Below, piece by piece: positions 2,115 through 8,662 of a stretch of DNA of 64,000 bases. The DNA is taken from positions 124,001 through 188,000 of the forward strand of contig DATCTN010000026.1 in assembly GCA_036567965.1 (NCBI GenBank). Reading direction: 5' to 3'. Position numbers and translations under genes: made by a program. The stretch's first letter is position 1. Each line of letters opens with the position of its first letter. The notes under the pieces are model-generated. The model had not been told where the DNA came from. It worked only from the letters and a program-made list of their open reading frames with translations, and did not search any database. Source of the DNA: Candidatus Kryptoniota bacterium (GTDB lineage Bacteria; Bacteroidota; Ignavibacteria; Kryptoniales; JAKASW01).

Positions 2115-3416
2115 TTAGCTCACTTCCTGCATCTGAGTTGTAATCCCGATTTTCTTCAAGAGCTCAAACGGAAGCTCCCCGCCCGCGAATATGAACACGA
2201 ATTCGTTCCTGATTTCCCGATCGCCTTCGGGCGTCGCGATGACGACACTCTCTTCGCGAATCTCTTTCACTTCAGAATTGAAAATCACGTTTGCTTTCTT
2301 CTTCGATATCATCTCGCCAATCTGATCCCGGTTCCGCTCTTTGATTCGAGTGAATTCCCCCTTCCGGTAAGAGAGCGTGATCGTGTTGTTCTTCTGGAGA
2401 CTCAATCCAACAGCGGCCTCTATCGCCGAGTCTCCTCCGCCCACGATCAGGATCGAATTGTTATTGTATGTCGATGTGTCTATCAATCTGTACATGACTT
2501 TCGATAATTCCTCGCCCGGCACTCCAAGTTTCCTCGGCGTTCCTCGCCTACCGAGTGCGAGTATCACGTGCCCTGCGGTTAAGGTCAAATCTGAAGTTGT
2601 GACTGTGAATATCCCATCTGCTTTCGTTATGTCGAGTACTTTTTCATTGACTTTCACATTTAACGAACACGTCGAGATTATTTGCTGCCAGACCTCCAGG
2701 AGCTTTTCCTTTTTCACTTCGGTCAGTTTCAATTTTCCCCAGATCGGCAATTCCACCGGCGCGGTCATTACTACTTTTGCGCGAGGATAATGGAGTATCG
2801 ATCCGCCGATGTCGCTTTGCTCAAGTATGATGTATCTAAAATTCTTCTCCTGCGCGCTCAGTCCCGAGGCGAGTCCGGCCGGCCCGGCACCTACGATCAC
2901 GATGTCGTACTCGGCATTTCTCGCTCGCTCCTGTGCCACGATATGCTCGACCGCTGCCTTGCCCTGGGTTACCGCATTCTTTATCAATCCGATTCCGCCG
3001 AGCTCACCGACTATATAAATTCCTTTTACACTCGTCTCGTAATTTTCGTCCACGCCCGGTAAATCGGCGTTCCGGCCGGGTTTCGCCATCAGCAGAGTAA
3101 TCGCGTTCACCGGACACGCATCCGCGCACAAGCCGTGACCAACACACTTCGCACCATGGATGAGAGTCGCTTTTCCTTCGATTATGCCGAGCACGTCTCC
3201 TTCCGGGCATGCCTTTACGCATCCGCCGCAGCCGATGCAGTTCGTGACATCAATGTGCGGGTGAACAGTCGACGCCTCGCTGAGTCCGCTGATCTTCAGT
3301 TCCTGGAATTTTTTCCGCGCCTTCTCCTCTTTGCGCTTCAGGTAGAGGACGTAGGGGACTACAGTCACAATGATCAGGAATATCGTGGCGAGCGTTGTAA
3401 TAAAAGTGTCGTTCAT
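2115..3416 (-). CDS. membrane-anchored ferredoxin-flavoprotein oxidoreductase
   Basis: This 433-residue protein is the last gene of the minus-strand redox cluster. Residues 5-26 form one transmembrane helix followed by KRKEEKARKK, which should place the rest in the cytoplasm. A two-cluster ferredoxin domain follows: C60-x2-C63-x2-C66-x3-C70, then C91-x2-H94-x2-C97-x3-C101, where a histidine replaces one expected cysteine. Next is a segment of the type GIYIVGELGG (about 133-142), normally found at the C-terminus of thioredoxin-reductase-like flavoproteins. After that come the FAD motif IVGAGPAGL (about 174) and the NAD(P) motif ILIVGGGDSA. The order suggests a circularly permuted flavoprotein. 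No CxxC redox disulfide is visible, so it is not a thioredoxin reductase. The inferred role is NAD(P)H:cytochrome or quinone electron transfer; donor and acceptor are not known. Confidence 0.8.
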   Translation of the reverse strand: MNDTFITTLATIFLIIVTVVPYVLYLKRKEEKARKKFQELKISGLSEASTVHPHIDVTNCIGCGGCVKACPEGDVLGIIEGKATLIHGAKCVGHGLCADACPVNAITLLMAKPGRNADLPGVDENYETSVKGIYIVGELGGIGLIKNAVTQGKAAVEHIVAQERARNAEYDIVIVGAGPAGLASGLSAQEKNFRYIILEQSDIGGSILHYPRAKVVMTAPVELPIWGKLKLTEVKKEKLLEVWQQIISTCSLNVKVNEKVLDITKADGIFTVTTSDLTLTAGHVILALGRRGTPRKLGVPGEELSKVMYRLIDTSTYNNNSILIVGGGDSAIEAAVGLSLQKNNTITLSYRKGEFTRIKERNRDQIGEMISKKKANVIFNSEVKEIREESVVIATPEGDREIRNEFVFIFAGGELPFELLKKIGITTQMQEVS

Positions 3417-3430
3417 GTTCGTAGTAGTAG

Positions 3431-3480
3431 TTAGCCATTAGCTCTTAGCAATTAGCCATCAGCTAACAGCTAACAGCTAA
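3431..3480. repeat. degenerate 7-bp tandem repeat
   Basis: The gap between two minus-strand genes holds seven consecutive heptamers related to TTAGCCA/TTAGCTG. On the plus strand the units read TTAGCCA, TTAGCTC, TTAGCAA, TTAGCCA, TCAGCTA, ACAGCTA, ACAGCTA and a final A. A short GTA trinucleotide run precedes them. Because the unit length is not a multiple of three and each unit contains TAG or CTA, the block places stop codons in all frames. It lies directly between the barrel-protein stop and the ferredoxin-flavoprotein start, including the region where that gene's ribosome site would be expected. Confidence 0.85.
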
Positions 3481-3483
3481 ATC

Positions 3484-5085
3484 CTAAAAGCTTATCCCAA
3501 TTTCCGCATTTATTTGTATGCTGTTCATCGTCGCGTCTATTATATCGTCAACTCCAATCGATATAAACCAGCGTGGCGAAATATAATAGTCGACGTAACC
3601 GGTAAGAGTCTGGGTCGAGTAGCTCTGCTGAACAGTGGAGACGGTTACGTTGTAGGAATCATATCGGAGAGTCAGCGAAAGTGAATAGAAGAAAGTCCGG
3701 TCGAGCTCGAACGAAAAGTCGCCGCCGTTCGTGAAAGCGCCAACAAAACTCGTGTACTGCAGTGCGGCATTCATGCCCGTCTCGAGGAGATCGCGCCCTC
3801 TTATCGTGCCTCCCAATGTGCGTTCATTTCGAGCGAATCCCTTTTCGGTCCTGAATGATCCGTTTGCAGAGAGCGTAAATTCGCCCGACAAATCTGCCGT
3901 AACGCTTCCTCTGAAACCCTGGAGAATATTCCTGTCGACAAGCGAATCGGGGATAGTTCTCATTGTCTGAAACAGATATACCTCTCGCGACGCGTCGTAC
4001 CCGAGGTTCGCAAACAGCCATTCAGCGGGATAATAGTTGACAGACAGGAAGGTGTTAGAAAAATTGAACGCGGTCTTCCTCGCTCCGTTTGAGAGCTCGC
4101 TCAGGTCTATTTCGGATGATTCATAAACCGAAGTCTTCGGGCCGAGCGAAACCATATTCTGAAGATAGAGGAAATCGCGGTCGAGCTTGCCGCCGACTGT
4201 TTGTACCCCGTAGGCGATTGTACCATCATATTGATGCGAAAAGTCTTCAGACGTGTGGTAATTAAGAAATGCGGCTGTCTTCGTTCCGCTGAAATTCAGA
4301 ACCGACGAGGGAATATTTGCCGCTGCGCCGCCTAGAAGTCCCGCGGTAAATTTGTCGATTCGGTAATAAATCTGCGCGCCGTCGAAAGTGCCCAGCCCGC
4401 CGACAAATCTTGATGTTAACCGGCCCAATCCGAATCCGAGTGGAGACTTCTCGTTTTCACGTGTCAGAGAAAAGTCGTAAAGATTTTGCTGGAAACCTTT
4501 CCTGTTGCCGTAAAGCGAATAATCATCAGGGGTCGAGTAGAATCCTCTGTCGTAAATTGACAGCGCGGTTCCGGTTCCGAATAGGTTGCCGAGTCTCATC
4601 TGCAGCATAAGTGCCGGTTGATTGAGATCGAATTTTGATTCTTCAGCGATTACGCCTTCATATTGGACTGCTATTCTTCCTGTTAAGATGTTTTCGACAG
4701 GTACACTGGACTTTTGGATTTGCGGAGCATTGCTCATCGCGTGCCGGCTCTTGTTGTTTGCTTGCTCGGACGCGATCGCCTGCGCCGATTCGTACCATAC
4801 ATCAATTGTTACTGAATCCCCCACAGTGAATTTCGAAAGTGCGCCGTGATACGATGCCGCGCTTGAGCTGTCGGCGATTGCAGTGATTATTGCGCTGCCT
4901 AGCTCGCTGCCGTTCTTGAATATGCGGGCTGTATCCCCCACCGAAATGTGATCGAGATTTCCCGCGCCCATGTAGATATTTGTCCCCGAGATGTAAGTAA
5001 TACGGGAATGAACTTCCTTCTTTTGTTGAGTCTGTGCGGAGGCAGCGCCGATCAATGATATAAGCAGGAAGATCGTTTGTTTCAT
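3484..5085 (-). CDS. outer-membrane beta-barrel protein of the cytochrome cluster
   Basis: The product is 533 residues from the ATG at 5085, chosen because it gives a clean signal peptide (MKQTIFLLISLIGAASA) and overlaps the upstream cytochrome stop as ATGA. A longer in-frame extension to 5199 would bury the signal. After the signal, about 90 residues contain a small beta-rich part (SRITYISGTNIYMG, VGDTARIF, VGDSVTIDVW), then a long region of alternating polar/aromatic strands. The last residues are AEIGISF with a terminal phenylalanine, as expected for an outer-membrane barrel recognised by BamA. I do not recognise a named family. Its place next to two multihaem cytochromes suggests an MtrB/PioB-like porin role by analogy only; no sequence relation to MtrB was established. 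Confidence 0.7.
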   Translation of the reverse strand: MKQTIFLLISLIGAASAQTQQKKEVHSRITYISGTNIYMGAGNLDHISVGDTARIFKNGSELGSAIITAIADSSSAASYHGALSKFTVGDSVTIDVWYESAQAIASEQANNKSRHAMSNAPQIQKSSVPVENILTGRIAVQYEGVIAEESKFDLNQPALMLQMRLGNLFGTGTALSIYDRGFYSTPDDYSLYGNRKGFQQNLYDFSLTRENEKSPLGFGLGRLTSRFVGGLGTFDGAQIYYRIDKFTAGLLGGAAANIPSSVLNFSGTKTAAFLNYHTSEDFSHQYDGTIAYGVQTVGGKLDRDFLYLQNMVSLGPKTSVYESSEIDLSELSNGARKTAFNFSNTFLSVNYYPAEWLFANLGYDASREVYLFQTMRTIPDSLVDRNILQGFRGSVTADLSGEFTLSANGSFRTEKGFARNERTLGGTIRGRDLLETGMNAALQYTSFVGAFTNGGDFSFELDRTFFYSLSLTLRYDSYNVTVSTVQQSYSTQTLTGYVDYYISPRWFISIGVDDIIDATMNSIQINAEIGISF

Positions 5086-5900
5086 CCGCCGCCTGTCGGG
5101 TGACAGTTGTAACAGGCGCTGCTCTGGTAGACGTAACCTCGAACGTTTGAGTGCTGTGGATCGGTTCTCCCGTGAGTGTGCTCGTGGCATGTCGTGCACG
5201 CGAGCGCCTGGAACCCGGCGGGAGTATCAGCTGTGTGACAATCCGTGCATTTGTTCCATACTCCGGGACTGTGTCTGTTTCCCGCGTGGATCGGGAAGTA
5301 AGGGTGAGGGAAAAACGCGGCTGGCTGCCATGTGAGAGAACGGTGGCATGTTCCGCACATTACCGAATAACCTGCCGCTGAGTGATTGGGCTCCTGTGTG
5401 GAATTGTATTCCGTCTGATGACACGCCACGCATTCGCTCGGAGTTCCACGATACCGGTTGCCCACATGGCACGAAAGACACGGGACCGCATCATGCGCAC
5501 CTCTGGTGGGAAACTGTGTAATGTTGTGATCGAAACTCGATTGCCATGAGATCCCGTCGATGCGGTGACATTGAGTGCAATCGGTGCCGAAACCGGCAAG
5601 CCGGTGGTCCACTGCCACTGCCGCGTCGTAATCTTTTTGATGACAGAAGTAACAGTTCTTGGGTGTGCCGGTAAATTTCAAGTCAGTGTGGCAGCTCCGG
5701 CAGGAGATCGCGCGGTGCTGGCCGTAAAGTTTGAAGCTGGTATTTGAATGGTCGAATTTCATCGGAGATGTCAGCACGGTCCAGCTGCCGGTTGTGTGGC
5801 AGTCGGTGCACTCCATCGCGATCTTCCCATGTGGAGATTCCTGTGCGAGCACGGTGGAGCACCACAATATTGTCGTGACAACGAATATAAATGGTCTCAT
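5082..5900 (-). CDS. periplasmic decahaem c-type cytochrome
   Basis: From the ATG at 5900 the product is 272 residues with a signal peptide (MRPFIFVVTTILWCSTVLAQ) and ten CxxCH haem-binding motifs: CTDCH, CRSCH, CYFCH, CTQCH, CLSCH, CVACH, CGTCH, CTDCH, CTTCH, CYNCH. Additional histidines of the type FDHSN and GQHRA, spaced between motifs, could supply distal ligands. An upstream GTG at 5933 overlaps the previous stop as GTGA, but the ATG has a GAGAGA ribosome site and a better signal peptide. The stop overlaps the start of the barrel-protein gene by four bases, suggesting translational coupling. It resembles the repeats of the neighbouring 20-haem protein and is expected to carry electrons in the periplasm or within the outer-membrane barrel. 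Confidence 0.88.
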   Translation of the reverse strand: MRPFIFVVTTILWCSTVLAQESPHGKIAMECTDCHTTGSWTVLTSPMKFDHSNTSFKLYGQHRAISCRSCHTDLKFTGTPKNCYFCHQKDYDAAVAVDHRLAGFGTDCTQCHRIDGISWQSSFDHNITQFPTRGAHDAVPCLSCHVGNRYRGTPSECVACHQTEYNSTQEPNHSAAGYSVMCGTCHRSLTWQPAAFFPHPYFPIHAGNRHSPGVWNKCTDCHTADTPAGFQALACTTCHEHTHGRTDPQHSNVRGYVYQSSACYNCHPTGGG

Positions 5901-5929
5901 TTTGAATCTCTCAATTGTCTGCTGGTGCT

Positions 5930-7564
5930 TCACGCGGAATGGCAGTCAATACATTTTGTGCCGATCGGACGATATCTTGCTGTCCTCTTGCCATCGATAA
6001 GAACTGTCGGATGACATTTCTCGCACGCGACTCCTATGTGCTTGCCGGTTAATGGGAACGATGACTGAGTGTCATGGTCGAAATTTGTCCTCGTCCAGTT
6101 TTCCGCCGTATGACATCTGCCGCAATCTGTGAAACCCTCAATCATGAATTGCCCCTTATGCTCGTCTGCGTGACAGCTCGAACATTTCATATCGAGTCCG
6201 ACATATTGAACGGGAAGCGGTTCTGCCGGCTGAGTGTGGCATTTCGAGCATGCGATCTCCGCGTGCTTCCCGCGAAGAGGGAATCTCGTCTTTTCATGCG
6301 AAAACAGGAGCGATTGCCATGACACCGTCGTATGACATGTAACACATCCGCGAGCCATTTCATTCACGAATTGCCCACCGTGAATATTTGAATGACAGGT
6401 TGTGCAATCTATTTCTCCTTTCCAGCGGAACTGGAGTTTAGACTGGGCATTCACTTTTCCCGATTGATGGCAATCGTTGCAGGCGACCGCTTTGTGGGCG
6501 CCGGTAAGAATGTACCTCGTCTTCTGATGATCGTCTATGCTGAACTCCGCAGGTTTGAAGCCCGCGTCGATGTGGCATGCGTCGCATTTCCCGCCGTCGT
6601 CTCGATCGGCAAACTGTCCGGCATGCGCGTCGGCGTGACAGTCAGAACACGCCTGGAATTTAGTAATATGAAATCCAAGCTCACCAGATATGTTTTTCTT
6701 CATAGGATTGTCCGAGTGGCACTGTGAGCATTTCAAGTCGGCGTGCTTGCCGCGCAGAGGGAAGAGCGTTTTCGAATGATCGAATTCGGCCTTTGCAACG
6801 ATCACGAAAGTTTCTGTGGTGTGACACGACGAACAAGGTTGCTTGAACTCCCCTTTGTGTGGATCGGCGTGACATGAAACGCATGACGAAAAACTCATGT
6901 GAGTGAACTTGATCGTTTTTCCGTCGGCAAGAGTCTGGTTGTGACATTGATAGCAGCCTGTGGTCCTATGCTTTCCGGTCAGCACGAAATTTGTCCTGTC
7001 ATGCGAAAAGTTATCGGCGGGTTTCCAGCGTTCTGTTGTGTGGCACGAGGAACAGTTTGAACTGAGCTGGCCCTTGTGGATGTCTTCATGGCACGACTGG
7101 CACGACGTCGACAATCCGAGATATGTTATTTTTTGTTGAGTTGCAGGAAGAAGCTTCACGTCCGCTGCCGAAATGTTGTTGGTGTTGTGGCATTGGCGAC
7201 ATGAGGTAGACTTGTGTTTACCGGTAAGAGCGAACCCTACGGCGGAGTGATTGAATGTCGCGGTATCCAGAGGCATGATCTGGTAGTTTCTGCCGAAATG
7301 TTCGTGATGGCATTCCTGGCACATCTTCAGGCTGACTGTCGCATGGTATCCCTCGCCTTGTTTTATGCGGACGTTGATCTCCTTGTGACACGATAGACAT
7401 CTGGCGTTCGAAAGCGATTTCCCTATAGTGTGGCACTGGGTGCAGTTGCTCATCCCCTCCAGGTTGGCATGAGCGGTGGTCAACTCTCCGGGAGAAATTT
7501 GCCCGTAAGAAACGCCCGCCAGTATGTCAAGAATTGATAAAATCAGGACAGTTTTTGCTGTCAT
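5930..7564 (-). CDS. 20-haem c-type cytochrome made of tri-haem modules
   Basis: This 544-residue secreted cytochrome has a signal peptide (MTAKTVLILSILDILAGVSYG) and twenty CxxCH motifs. Haem 1 is followed by six similar blocks of three haems and then a single C-terminal haem. The last five blocks open with CxxCHxxxHxGQF-like sequence, continue with CxxCH and an aromatic stretch, and close with F-H, GKH/GAH and CxxCH. The extra histidines in each block are likely distal haem ligands. Such a chain would form a long periplasmic wire. It lies between the membrane cytochrome b gene and the decahaem gene, and its stop abuts the latter. Expression needs a cytochrome c maturation system that is not encoded in this window. 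No ribosome site is obvious upstream of the ATG. Confidence 0.9.
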   Translation of the reverse strand: MTAKTVLILSILDILAGVSYGQISPGELTTAHANLEGMSNCTQCHTIGKSLSNARCLSCHKEINVRIKQGEGYHATVSLKMCQECHHEHFGRNYQIMPLDTATFNHSAVGFALTGKHKSTSCRQCHNTNNISAADVKLLPATQQKITYLGLSTSCQSCHEDIHKGQLSSNCSSCHTTERWKPADNFSHDRTNFVLTGKHRTTGCYQCHNQTLADGKTIKFTHMSFSSCVSCHADPHKGEFKQPCSSCHTTETFVIVAKAEFDHSKTLFPLRGKHADLKCSQCHSDNPMKKNISGELGFHITKFQACSDCHADAHAGQFADRDDGGKCDACHIDAGFKPAEFSIDDHQKTRYILTGAHKAVACNDCHQSGKVNAQSKLQFRWKGEIDCTTCHSNIHGGQFVNEMARGCVTCHTTVSWQSLLFSHEKTRFPLRGKHAEIACSKCHTQPAEPLPVQYVGLDMKCSSCHADEHKGQFMIEGFTDCGRCHTAENWTRTNFDHDTQSSFPLTGKHIGVACEKCHPTVLIDGKRTARYRPIGTKCIDCHSA

Positions 7565-7598
7565 CGATGCGTCATTTTAATAATTTACCAGGAGAACG

Positions 7599-7627
7599 AT
7601 TTAAAAGGGACAGAGAATTATTTTCAA
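7599..7627 (-). promoter_or_regulatory. possible sigma70-like promoter before the 20-haem gene
   Basis: On the minus strand TTGAAA and TTAAAT are separated by 17 bases, about 35 bases upstream of the cytochrome ATG. The -10 element matches the consensus in four of six positions. It lies in a 216-bp gap, so an internal promoter of the redox cluster is possible. Confidence 0.3.
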
Positions 7628-7780
7628 ATGGTCGAATTTATTTTGGAAACCGGAAAACGTTTTGTCTCTGACCGGGATCGTCCCCGTTCTGTAAAAAGGT
7701 CTAAGCTGTGAGATGCCCCTTCATTGTGGGAAGAAAATATCCAGCTGTCTGCATAGAATCAAGTGCGATGACTTGTCCGG

Positions 7781-8662
7781 TCACTTCCATATCCATGTAT
7801 ATCCCAGAGCGACCGCGACTCCGACATGCACGATCAAAATCGCCAGCATGACGATCGAGAAGGGGAGATGAATGACATGCCAGTAATGAAATACCTGCCT
7901 GAGCTTTTCAAGAGCGAGAATCCGCTGCCTGAGTACGATGCGGTCGTTTGCGACGCGAGCGATTTCGCGTACCGAATTCTCCGGGATGGAATGCTCGCGA
8001 AGAGTCTTCTTAAGCATCTTGACCCGTCTCGCTCTCGAGAAATCTACCGCGAAGAGATATAGGGTCAACCGAATCAATCCCGCTTTCGACTCGTCAAATT
8101 TATGTGTCCCGATACTTTCAATCGAATCGATGACGGAGCTGTCAAGATTGTGTTTTTCCTTTACCGATTGCAGGAGGCGGCTTCTCTCCTCCTCGAGATC
8201 TTTGGCAGTCAGTTCCTGTCCCTCTATATTTTTCGGGATGTGCCTGTAGAAATAGCGGCCGATGAAACCGCTCAGGACGACCGCCGACATGCTCCAGAAC
8301 CCGACAGCCGCAATGCCGCCGAACTTAAAAGTGGTATGGTACAAAACGAGTATGGGTCCCACAAGGCACATAAAGATATGAAATTCGAGATAATCTTTGA
8401 TCTTGCCCAGGTGAGCGAGGCGCCTCACTCTTTTTCTCGACGAGTATATCGCGACACCGATGAAAATCATGGCGGTCCCTATGATACCGTATCCATGACT
8501 CTCGAATCCGCTCGGCTTAAGTTCTTCATACAATGCATGAGTTGGCCTTTCGTCGAGAGGCAAAAGGTAGTACGTATAGTTCTTGATCCAAATCGAGACG
8601 GCGGTCAGTAAACCAACCGACACCAGGAAGATGGTGAAGATCGTATGGGGAAGTTTTTTCAT
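7781..8662 (-). CDS. two-haem transmembrane cytochrome b-like protein
   Basis: This 293-residue integral membrane protein has about five helices (near 8-28, 57-75, 93-111, 117-137 and 262-286). The third helix carries H95 and H109 and the fifth carries H265 and H279. Both pairs are fourteen positions apart, the H-x13-H pattern with which two stacked b-haems are held across a membrane in cytochrome b and ferric-reductase-type proteins. Between helices four and five lies a charged loop of about 115 residues, probably cytoplasmic because RKRVRR after helix two marks the inner side. It is the first gene of the minus-strand redox cluster, so it is a good candidate for the inner-membrane step passing electrons to the periplasmic cytochromes. 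I do not recognise a named family. Confidence 0.7.
   Translation of the reverse strand: MKKLPHTIFTIFLVSVGLLTAVSIWIKNYTYYLLPLDERPTHALYEELKPSGFESHGYGIIGTAMIFIGVAIYSSRKRVRRLAHLGKIKDYLEFHIFMCLVGPILVLYHTTFKFGGIAAVGFWSMSAVVLSGFIGRYFYRHIPKNIEGQELTAKDLEEERSRLLQSVKEKHNLDSSVIDSIESIGTHKFDESKAGLIRLTLYLFAVDFSRARRVKMLKKTLREHSIPENSVREIARVANDRIVLRQRILALEKLRQVFHYWHVIHLPFSIVMLAILIVHVGVAVALGYTWIWK

Follow-up and report, generated by a model that had tools for sequence, protein, structure and literature searches.

Three families of inner-membrane entry points, CymA, CbcL/MtrH/MtoC and ImcH, have been reviewed for bacterial extracellular electron transfer, and all three act on quinones (PMC6295460). The conduits closest to the one analysed here belong to the PCC3 group, which consists of a porin, a multihaem cytochrome (MHC) with a variable number of haems (10–85), a second MHC with about 21 haems, and an inner-membrane protein of about 300 amino acids (PMC5566968; PMC10734462). 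PCC3 was described as a set of four genes in Alpha-, Beta- and Gammaproteobacteria, with the hypothesis of a link to quinones, and the signature of its inner-membrane protein, shared with PCC4, comprises five helices, SGXXG on transmembrane helix (TM) 4, and WX3HX13H on TM3 and TM5 (PMC5566968). Published work on PCC3 leans toward a function in Fe(II) oxidation, and there is no biochemistry for any member (PMC12442390). In Ignavibacteria, OmbB-like and MtrB-like conduits have been reported. Additionally, unclassified porin–cytochrome clusters in Bacteroidetes were mentioned in two studies, neither of which describes the module presented below.

Gene content of the cluster and its likeness to PCC3

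The window, i.e., the whole 64,000-nucleotide stretch of the Candidatus Kryptoniota contig that was analysed, carries five genes on its minus strand. In the order of transcription, they encode a membrane cytochrome b (7781..8662, 293 aa), a 20-haem c-type cytochrome (5930..7564, 544 aa), a 10-haem c-type cytochrome (5082..5933, 283 aa), an outer-membrane beta-barrel (3484..5085, 533 aa), and a membrane-anchored ferredoxin-flavoprotein (2115..3416, 433 aa). The cluster had been read in this way in an earlier note made from the DNA alone, and all five open reading frames were recovered, with CXXCH motifs numbering exactly 20 in the 544-aa cytochrome and 10 in the 283-aa one, as that note had counted. 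Of the two overlapping starts that it proposed, there is no doubt about the ATGA between the 10-haem gene and the barrel gene, whereas the GTGA between the two cytochrome genes depends on the use of a GTG start at 5933. An alternative ATG at 5900, 33 bp downstream of the GTG, marks the beginning of the signal peptide and is at least as likely to be the start of the 10-haem gene; with this start, the overlap becomes a gap of about 30 bp. The cluster also contains gaps of 216 bp downstream of the cytochrome b gene and 67 bp upstream of the flavoprotein gene, because of which the five genes can be regarded only as a putative operon. The latter gap (3417-3483) contains degenerate TTAGC/GCTAA repeats.

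Both hydropathy and the AlphaFold2 model (pLDDT 86.5) assigned five helices to the cytochrome b, and its four invariant histidines are arranged in two pairs, H95-X13-H109 and H265-X13-H279, in agreement with its first description as a two-haem membrane protein. The sequence SGFIG (131-135) and the motif W261-X3-H265-X13-H279 are also present. The protein thus has the length, the five helices and the motifs of the PCC3 inner-membrane signature, with one deviation: the tryptophan of the TM3 motif, retained in most relatives, is Y91 in the window protein. None of the Pfam families reached the cut-off with this protein, and in a Foldseek search its model was not recognised as a described fold (best E 0.6). 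No meaningful match to a PDB sequence was obtained for the cytochrome b, the barrel or either MHC. A quinol oxidase with c-type haems, such as CymA, CbcL or ImcH, was rejected as an identity of the cytochrome b, since the protein has no CXXCH and matched no family of this type above the cut-off.

As in PCC3, the beta-barrel gene is clustered with the genes of large MHCs. Additionally, the module resembles PCC3 in the five-helix protein of about 300 aa with SGXXG and WX3HX13H, in the low number of residues per haem, in the presence of repeats and, to judge by haem counts, perhaps in its variable MHC. The two differ in the first MHC, which has 20 or 23 haems in the window family and 21, 24 or 27 in PCC3 (adjoining but unequal values), in the barrel, for which 22 strands are predicted as compared to up to 42 in PCC3, and in the hosts, which are Bacteroidota rather than Proteobacteria. 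Moreover, the window module has an obligate flavoprotein, whereas PCC3 was described as four genes. Matched with proteobacterial PCC3 by the published description and motifs, the window cluster looks like a PCC3-type porin–cytochrome conduit. What appears to be new in comparison with published PCC3 is the obligate flavoprotein, the distribution throughout Bacteroidota, and a series of cytochrome lengths increasing by three haems. We found no paper linking a flavoprotein to PCC3 in the open-licence literature, which is weak as evidence of absence.

The earlier note had also stated that no part of the cluster reads as a classical MtrCAB, Pcc or Cyc2 system, and had suggested a distinct conduit. 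The first statement held as far as curated models go: profile searches detected no MtrA/B/C, OmcA or Pcc/Omb family above the cut-off. The second was overstated, as the four core parts appear to match published PCC3. The cluster shares with MtrCAB, MtoAB and PioAB the general design of a cytochrome–porin conduit, and the DmsE/MtrA model gives a weak score for the 20-haem protein, but the scores were below the cut-offs (49.6 of 192.2 bits for DmsE, 17.7 of 209.3 bits for OmcA/MtrC), the barrel matched no MtrB/PioB family, and the cytochromes have no lipobox. Classical MtrCAB and Omb/Pcc were rejected for want of a family match above the cut-off, and Cyc2, in which a one-haem protein is fused to a barrel, was rejected as the window barrel has no CXXCH.

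The barrel and the multihaem cytochromes

The barrel has a signal peptide and ends with GISF, confirming the C-terminal F. When modelled alone, without the cytochromes (pLDDT 81.5), it formed 22 strands from residue 133 onward, preceded by a small N-terminal beta domain. Its Foldseek matches were outer-membrane barrels (ushers, porins and receptors), and MtrB was absent among the 50 matches listed.

Both cytochromes have a signal peptide and no lipobox; for want of the latter, we rejected the idea that the window encodes a lipoprotein MHC like MtrC. The 20-haem protein has 27 aa per haem and is predicted to span the periplasm as a partner of the cytochrome b. Haem numbers of the first MHC are 20 or 23 in 58 of the 65 distinct clusters, and we infer that this nearly fixed number reflects a limit set by the width of the periplasm. 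The second MHC, predicted to be barrel-associated or extracellular, varies from 10 haems in the window to 85 in relatives, as would be expected if the periplasm width limited only the first one. The window protein starts with QESPHG and ends with GYVYxSxACYxCHPxG, and in most relatives the SPHG start and the GYxYxSxACYxCHPxG end are kept, with a variable middle. The number of haems in this MHC fits 10+3n in 51/65 distinct cases, or in 40/54 without the 10-haem forms. The associated binomial values take related sequences as independent and overstate the significance of the fit, and the haem counts of relatives come from draft assemblies and mechanical ORF calls; in several of the drafts, a contig break separates the cytochrome b gene from the barrel gene. 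The window 10-haem protein is the n=0 form of the series, and in a 58-haem example the spacing of motifs repeats with a period of about 32-15-23 residues. The largest protein, encoded next to the barrel in a Bacteroidetes metagenome-assembled genome (L191), has 2140 aa and 85 CXXCH motifs, which equals the largest count quoted for PCC3.

Conservation and co-inheritance of the module

A search of 149 class genomes detected the cytochrome b in 40 of them and the barrel in 35; the loci that were fetched had the same gene set. More than 30 of the class genomes kept the gene content and order, mostly in two arrangements, and so did the majority of 80 further loci where the contig extended far enough. 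The latter were the best 80 of 532 relatives detected when the cytochrome b alignment was used to scan named genomes, and they represented Ignavibacteria, Melioribacteraceae, Saprospiraceae, Cyclobacteriaceae, Prolixibacteraceae and Flavobacteriaceae (Bacteroidota), as well as Chlorobiota metagenome-assembled genomes and one of Caldithrix. Chance association of the genes is ruled out by this synteny in dozens of genomes. The barrel was conserved with the cytochromes, contrary to what would be expected of an unrelated porin, and the genes in related genomes were clustered rather than scattered singly. The five genes are thus adjacent elsewhere too, but their order is not always that of the window: in 51 complete distinct loci, the flavoprotein gene was last, as in the window, in 16, second in 34, and divergent in 1.

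In the cytochrome b tree, each of the arrangements formed a single well-supported group. The genus of the window contains both of them, and the module is also carried by the Emticicia oligotrophica plasmid pEMTOL02. The host genome has a second, solitary copy of the barrel (L015:1455-2882; G000:C26:36455-37882), which is broken at its 5' end and is 56% identical to the barrel of a same-genus module of the flavoprotein-second type. The presence of both arrangements in one genus, the additional barrel copy in the host, and the plasmid copy in Emticicia point to gene transfer and replacement of the module. Near the solitary barrel gene, we noticed a gene for a nine-haem cytochrome and a gene that reads as a flavin oxidoreductase.

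Of 297 genomes sampled across the phylum, 27 had the flavoprotein, in all 27 together with an intact cytochrome b, so that the flavoprotein never occurred alone; the barrel was found in 25 of the 27. These counts refer to matches with E<1e-70 for the cytochrome b and E<1e-140 for the flavoprotein, cut-offs that were chosen after viewing the gap between strong and weak scores, and weak matches were left out. The only cytochrome b without the flavoprotein, in genome G125, has an in-frame stop and lies beside a barrel fragment. This locus (L103; G125:C56:38001-55000) is a decayed module, with a TAA within the cytochrome b frame and a short piece of the barrel. The perfect co-occurrence with intact cytochrome b indicates that the flavoprotein is a core part of the module. 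The distances of four of the proteins, namely the cytochrome b, the flavoprotein, the barrel and the 20-haem cytochrome, were correlated (Mantel r 0.83-0.94, permutation maximum 0.21). Taken together, the gene content, order, co-inheritance and protein properties give good support to the trans-envelope electron conduit proposed in the earlier note.

The flavoprotein and the predicted route of electrons

The ferredoxin-flavoprotein has a single TM helix at its N-terminus with a basic stretch after it, two 4Fe-4S motifs, CxxCxxCxxxCP (C60-C70) and CxxHxxCxxxCP (C91-C101), and a Pyr_redox_3 FAD-NAD(P) domain, which matches YpdA/Bdr and ferredoxin–NADP reductases of the thioredoxin reductase type. 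His94, which replaces cysteine at the second position of the second motif, was invariant in 18/18 aligned sequences, and flavoprotein-second members have an additional Cys-to-Ser change in the first motif. A role of this protein in cytochrome maturation was rejected, as by the positive-inside rule it faces the cytoplasm, and inspection of its flavin domain revealed no redox-active CxxC of thioredoxin reductases.

We consider it probable, with some reserve, that the module is a PCC3-type conduit with a cytoplasmic flavoprotein end, in which quinones are bypassed and electrons flow mainly outward. At the cytoplasmic face, NAD(P)H or reduced ferredoxin would reduce the flavoprotein at its FAD and Fe-S clusters, from which the electrons would pass across the inner membrane, bypassing quinones, through the two b haems of the cytochrome b to the 20-haem cytochrome of fixed length spanning the periplasm. 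The 10-haem cytochrome, assembled with the 22-strand barrel in a putative complex, would then lead them through this barrel to an extracellular acceptor.

It is unlikely, though worth weighing, that the same conduit is linked to quinones, with the cytochrome b acting as a quinol oxidoreductase and the flavoprotein as a side branch or regulator. He et al. likened the PCC3 membrane protein to quinone-active cytochrome b subunits (PMC5566968), and some members of the cytochrome b family have weak Pfam matches to cytochrome b561 and DUF4405; against this reading stand the perfect co-occurrence of the flavoprotein with intact cytochrome b and the gene neighbours of shorter relatives on plasmids. 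Nine plasmid loci (L119-L125, L207, L208) carry cytochrome b relatives of shorter length, with profile E values from 6e-14 to 2e-27, and in 9/9 loci an adjoining gene has the annotation of a 2Fe-2S or FAD oxidoreductase. This oxidoreductase is of NAD(P)H type, with FAD, NAD and 2Fe-2S domains confirmed by Pfam in both proteins tested. In 8/9 loci, the cytochrome b relatives also adjoin a heptahaem cytochrome that matches the N-terminal part of the 20-haem protein. These modules, found in Proteobacteria and Cytophagales, share with the window a homologous cytochrome b family, an MHC similar to the N-terminal half of the 20-haem protein, and a flavoprotein, but they have no barrel and no large MHC, and their flavoprotein is a 2Fe-2S FNR-type protein of another fold. 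Besides Emticicia, the plasmid search found only this shorter module, and we found no description of its function in the literature. So two structurally different flavoproteins partner one cytochrome b family, which suggests that NAD(P)H (or ferredoxin), and not quinol, supplies the electrons. There is about an even chance that the whole picture holds throughout the phylum, i.e., that an NAD(P)H- or ferredoxin-dependent flavoprotein–cytochrome b conduit bypasses quinones, lengthens its outer cytochrome by trihaem steps, and has a cytochrome b family that recruited two flavoproteins.

As to the direction, the opposite flow, from Fe(II), Mn(II) or partner cells through the barrel-adjacent MHC to the flavoprotein and on to NAD(P)+ or ferredoxin, seems improbable. 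It would be in line with the Fe(II) and Mn(II) oxidisers among published PCC3 carriers (PMC5566968) and with the kinship of the flavin domain to ferredoxin–NADP reductases. However, the neighbouring genes point to the use of sugar acids and polysaccharides: judged from their translations, the genes on the flavoprotein side, where a sugar kinase gene is convergent with the flavoprotein gene, appear to be those of sugar-acid catabolism, and the next minus-strand gene upstream of the cluster appears to encode a beta-glucosidase. Moreover, the host draft genome (4.15 Mb) encodes one COX1-family oxidase, and electrons imported from Fe(II) would have to climb to the potential of NADP+, with the membrane potential acting against them. 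Thus, from the heterotrophic setting and the energetics, we favour the outward direction, which in a sugar-using heterotroph would serve redox balancing or extracellular respiration. No energy would be conserved by exporting NAD(P)H electrons in this way, except through coupling at some other point.

If this outward, NAD(P)H-fed reading is true, the conduit represents a different route of electron disposal, and many Bacteroidota, including cultured Maribellus, Arenibacter, Maribacter and Emticicia, are predicted to exchange electrons with their surroundings. PCC3 would gain a testable cytoplasmic partner and cultured hosts.

Very improbable, in our estimation, is a reductase for redox or metal homeostasis, reducing Fe, Cu or Mn at the cell surface for uptake or detoxification and not for respiration. 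Several of the shorter plasmid modules with cytochrome b and MHC relatives do lie among copper-resistance genes, and Emticicia, Maribacter and Arenibacter, the genera of several carriers, are known to be aerobic. On the other hand, the genes flanking the module vary by locus, with no recurrent neighbour in the ORF maps, and such a task would hardly seem to call for MHCs with as many as 85 haems. Partial relatives of the cytochrome b were also encountered in five IMG/VR contigs (L209-L213), two of them of about 327 kb, which are possibly mis-binned cellular DNA.
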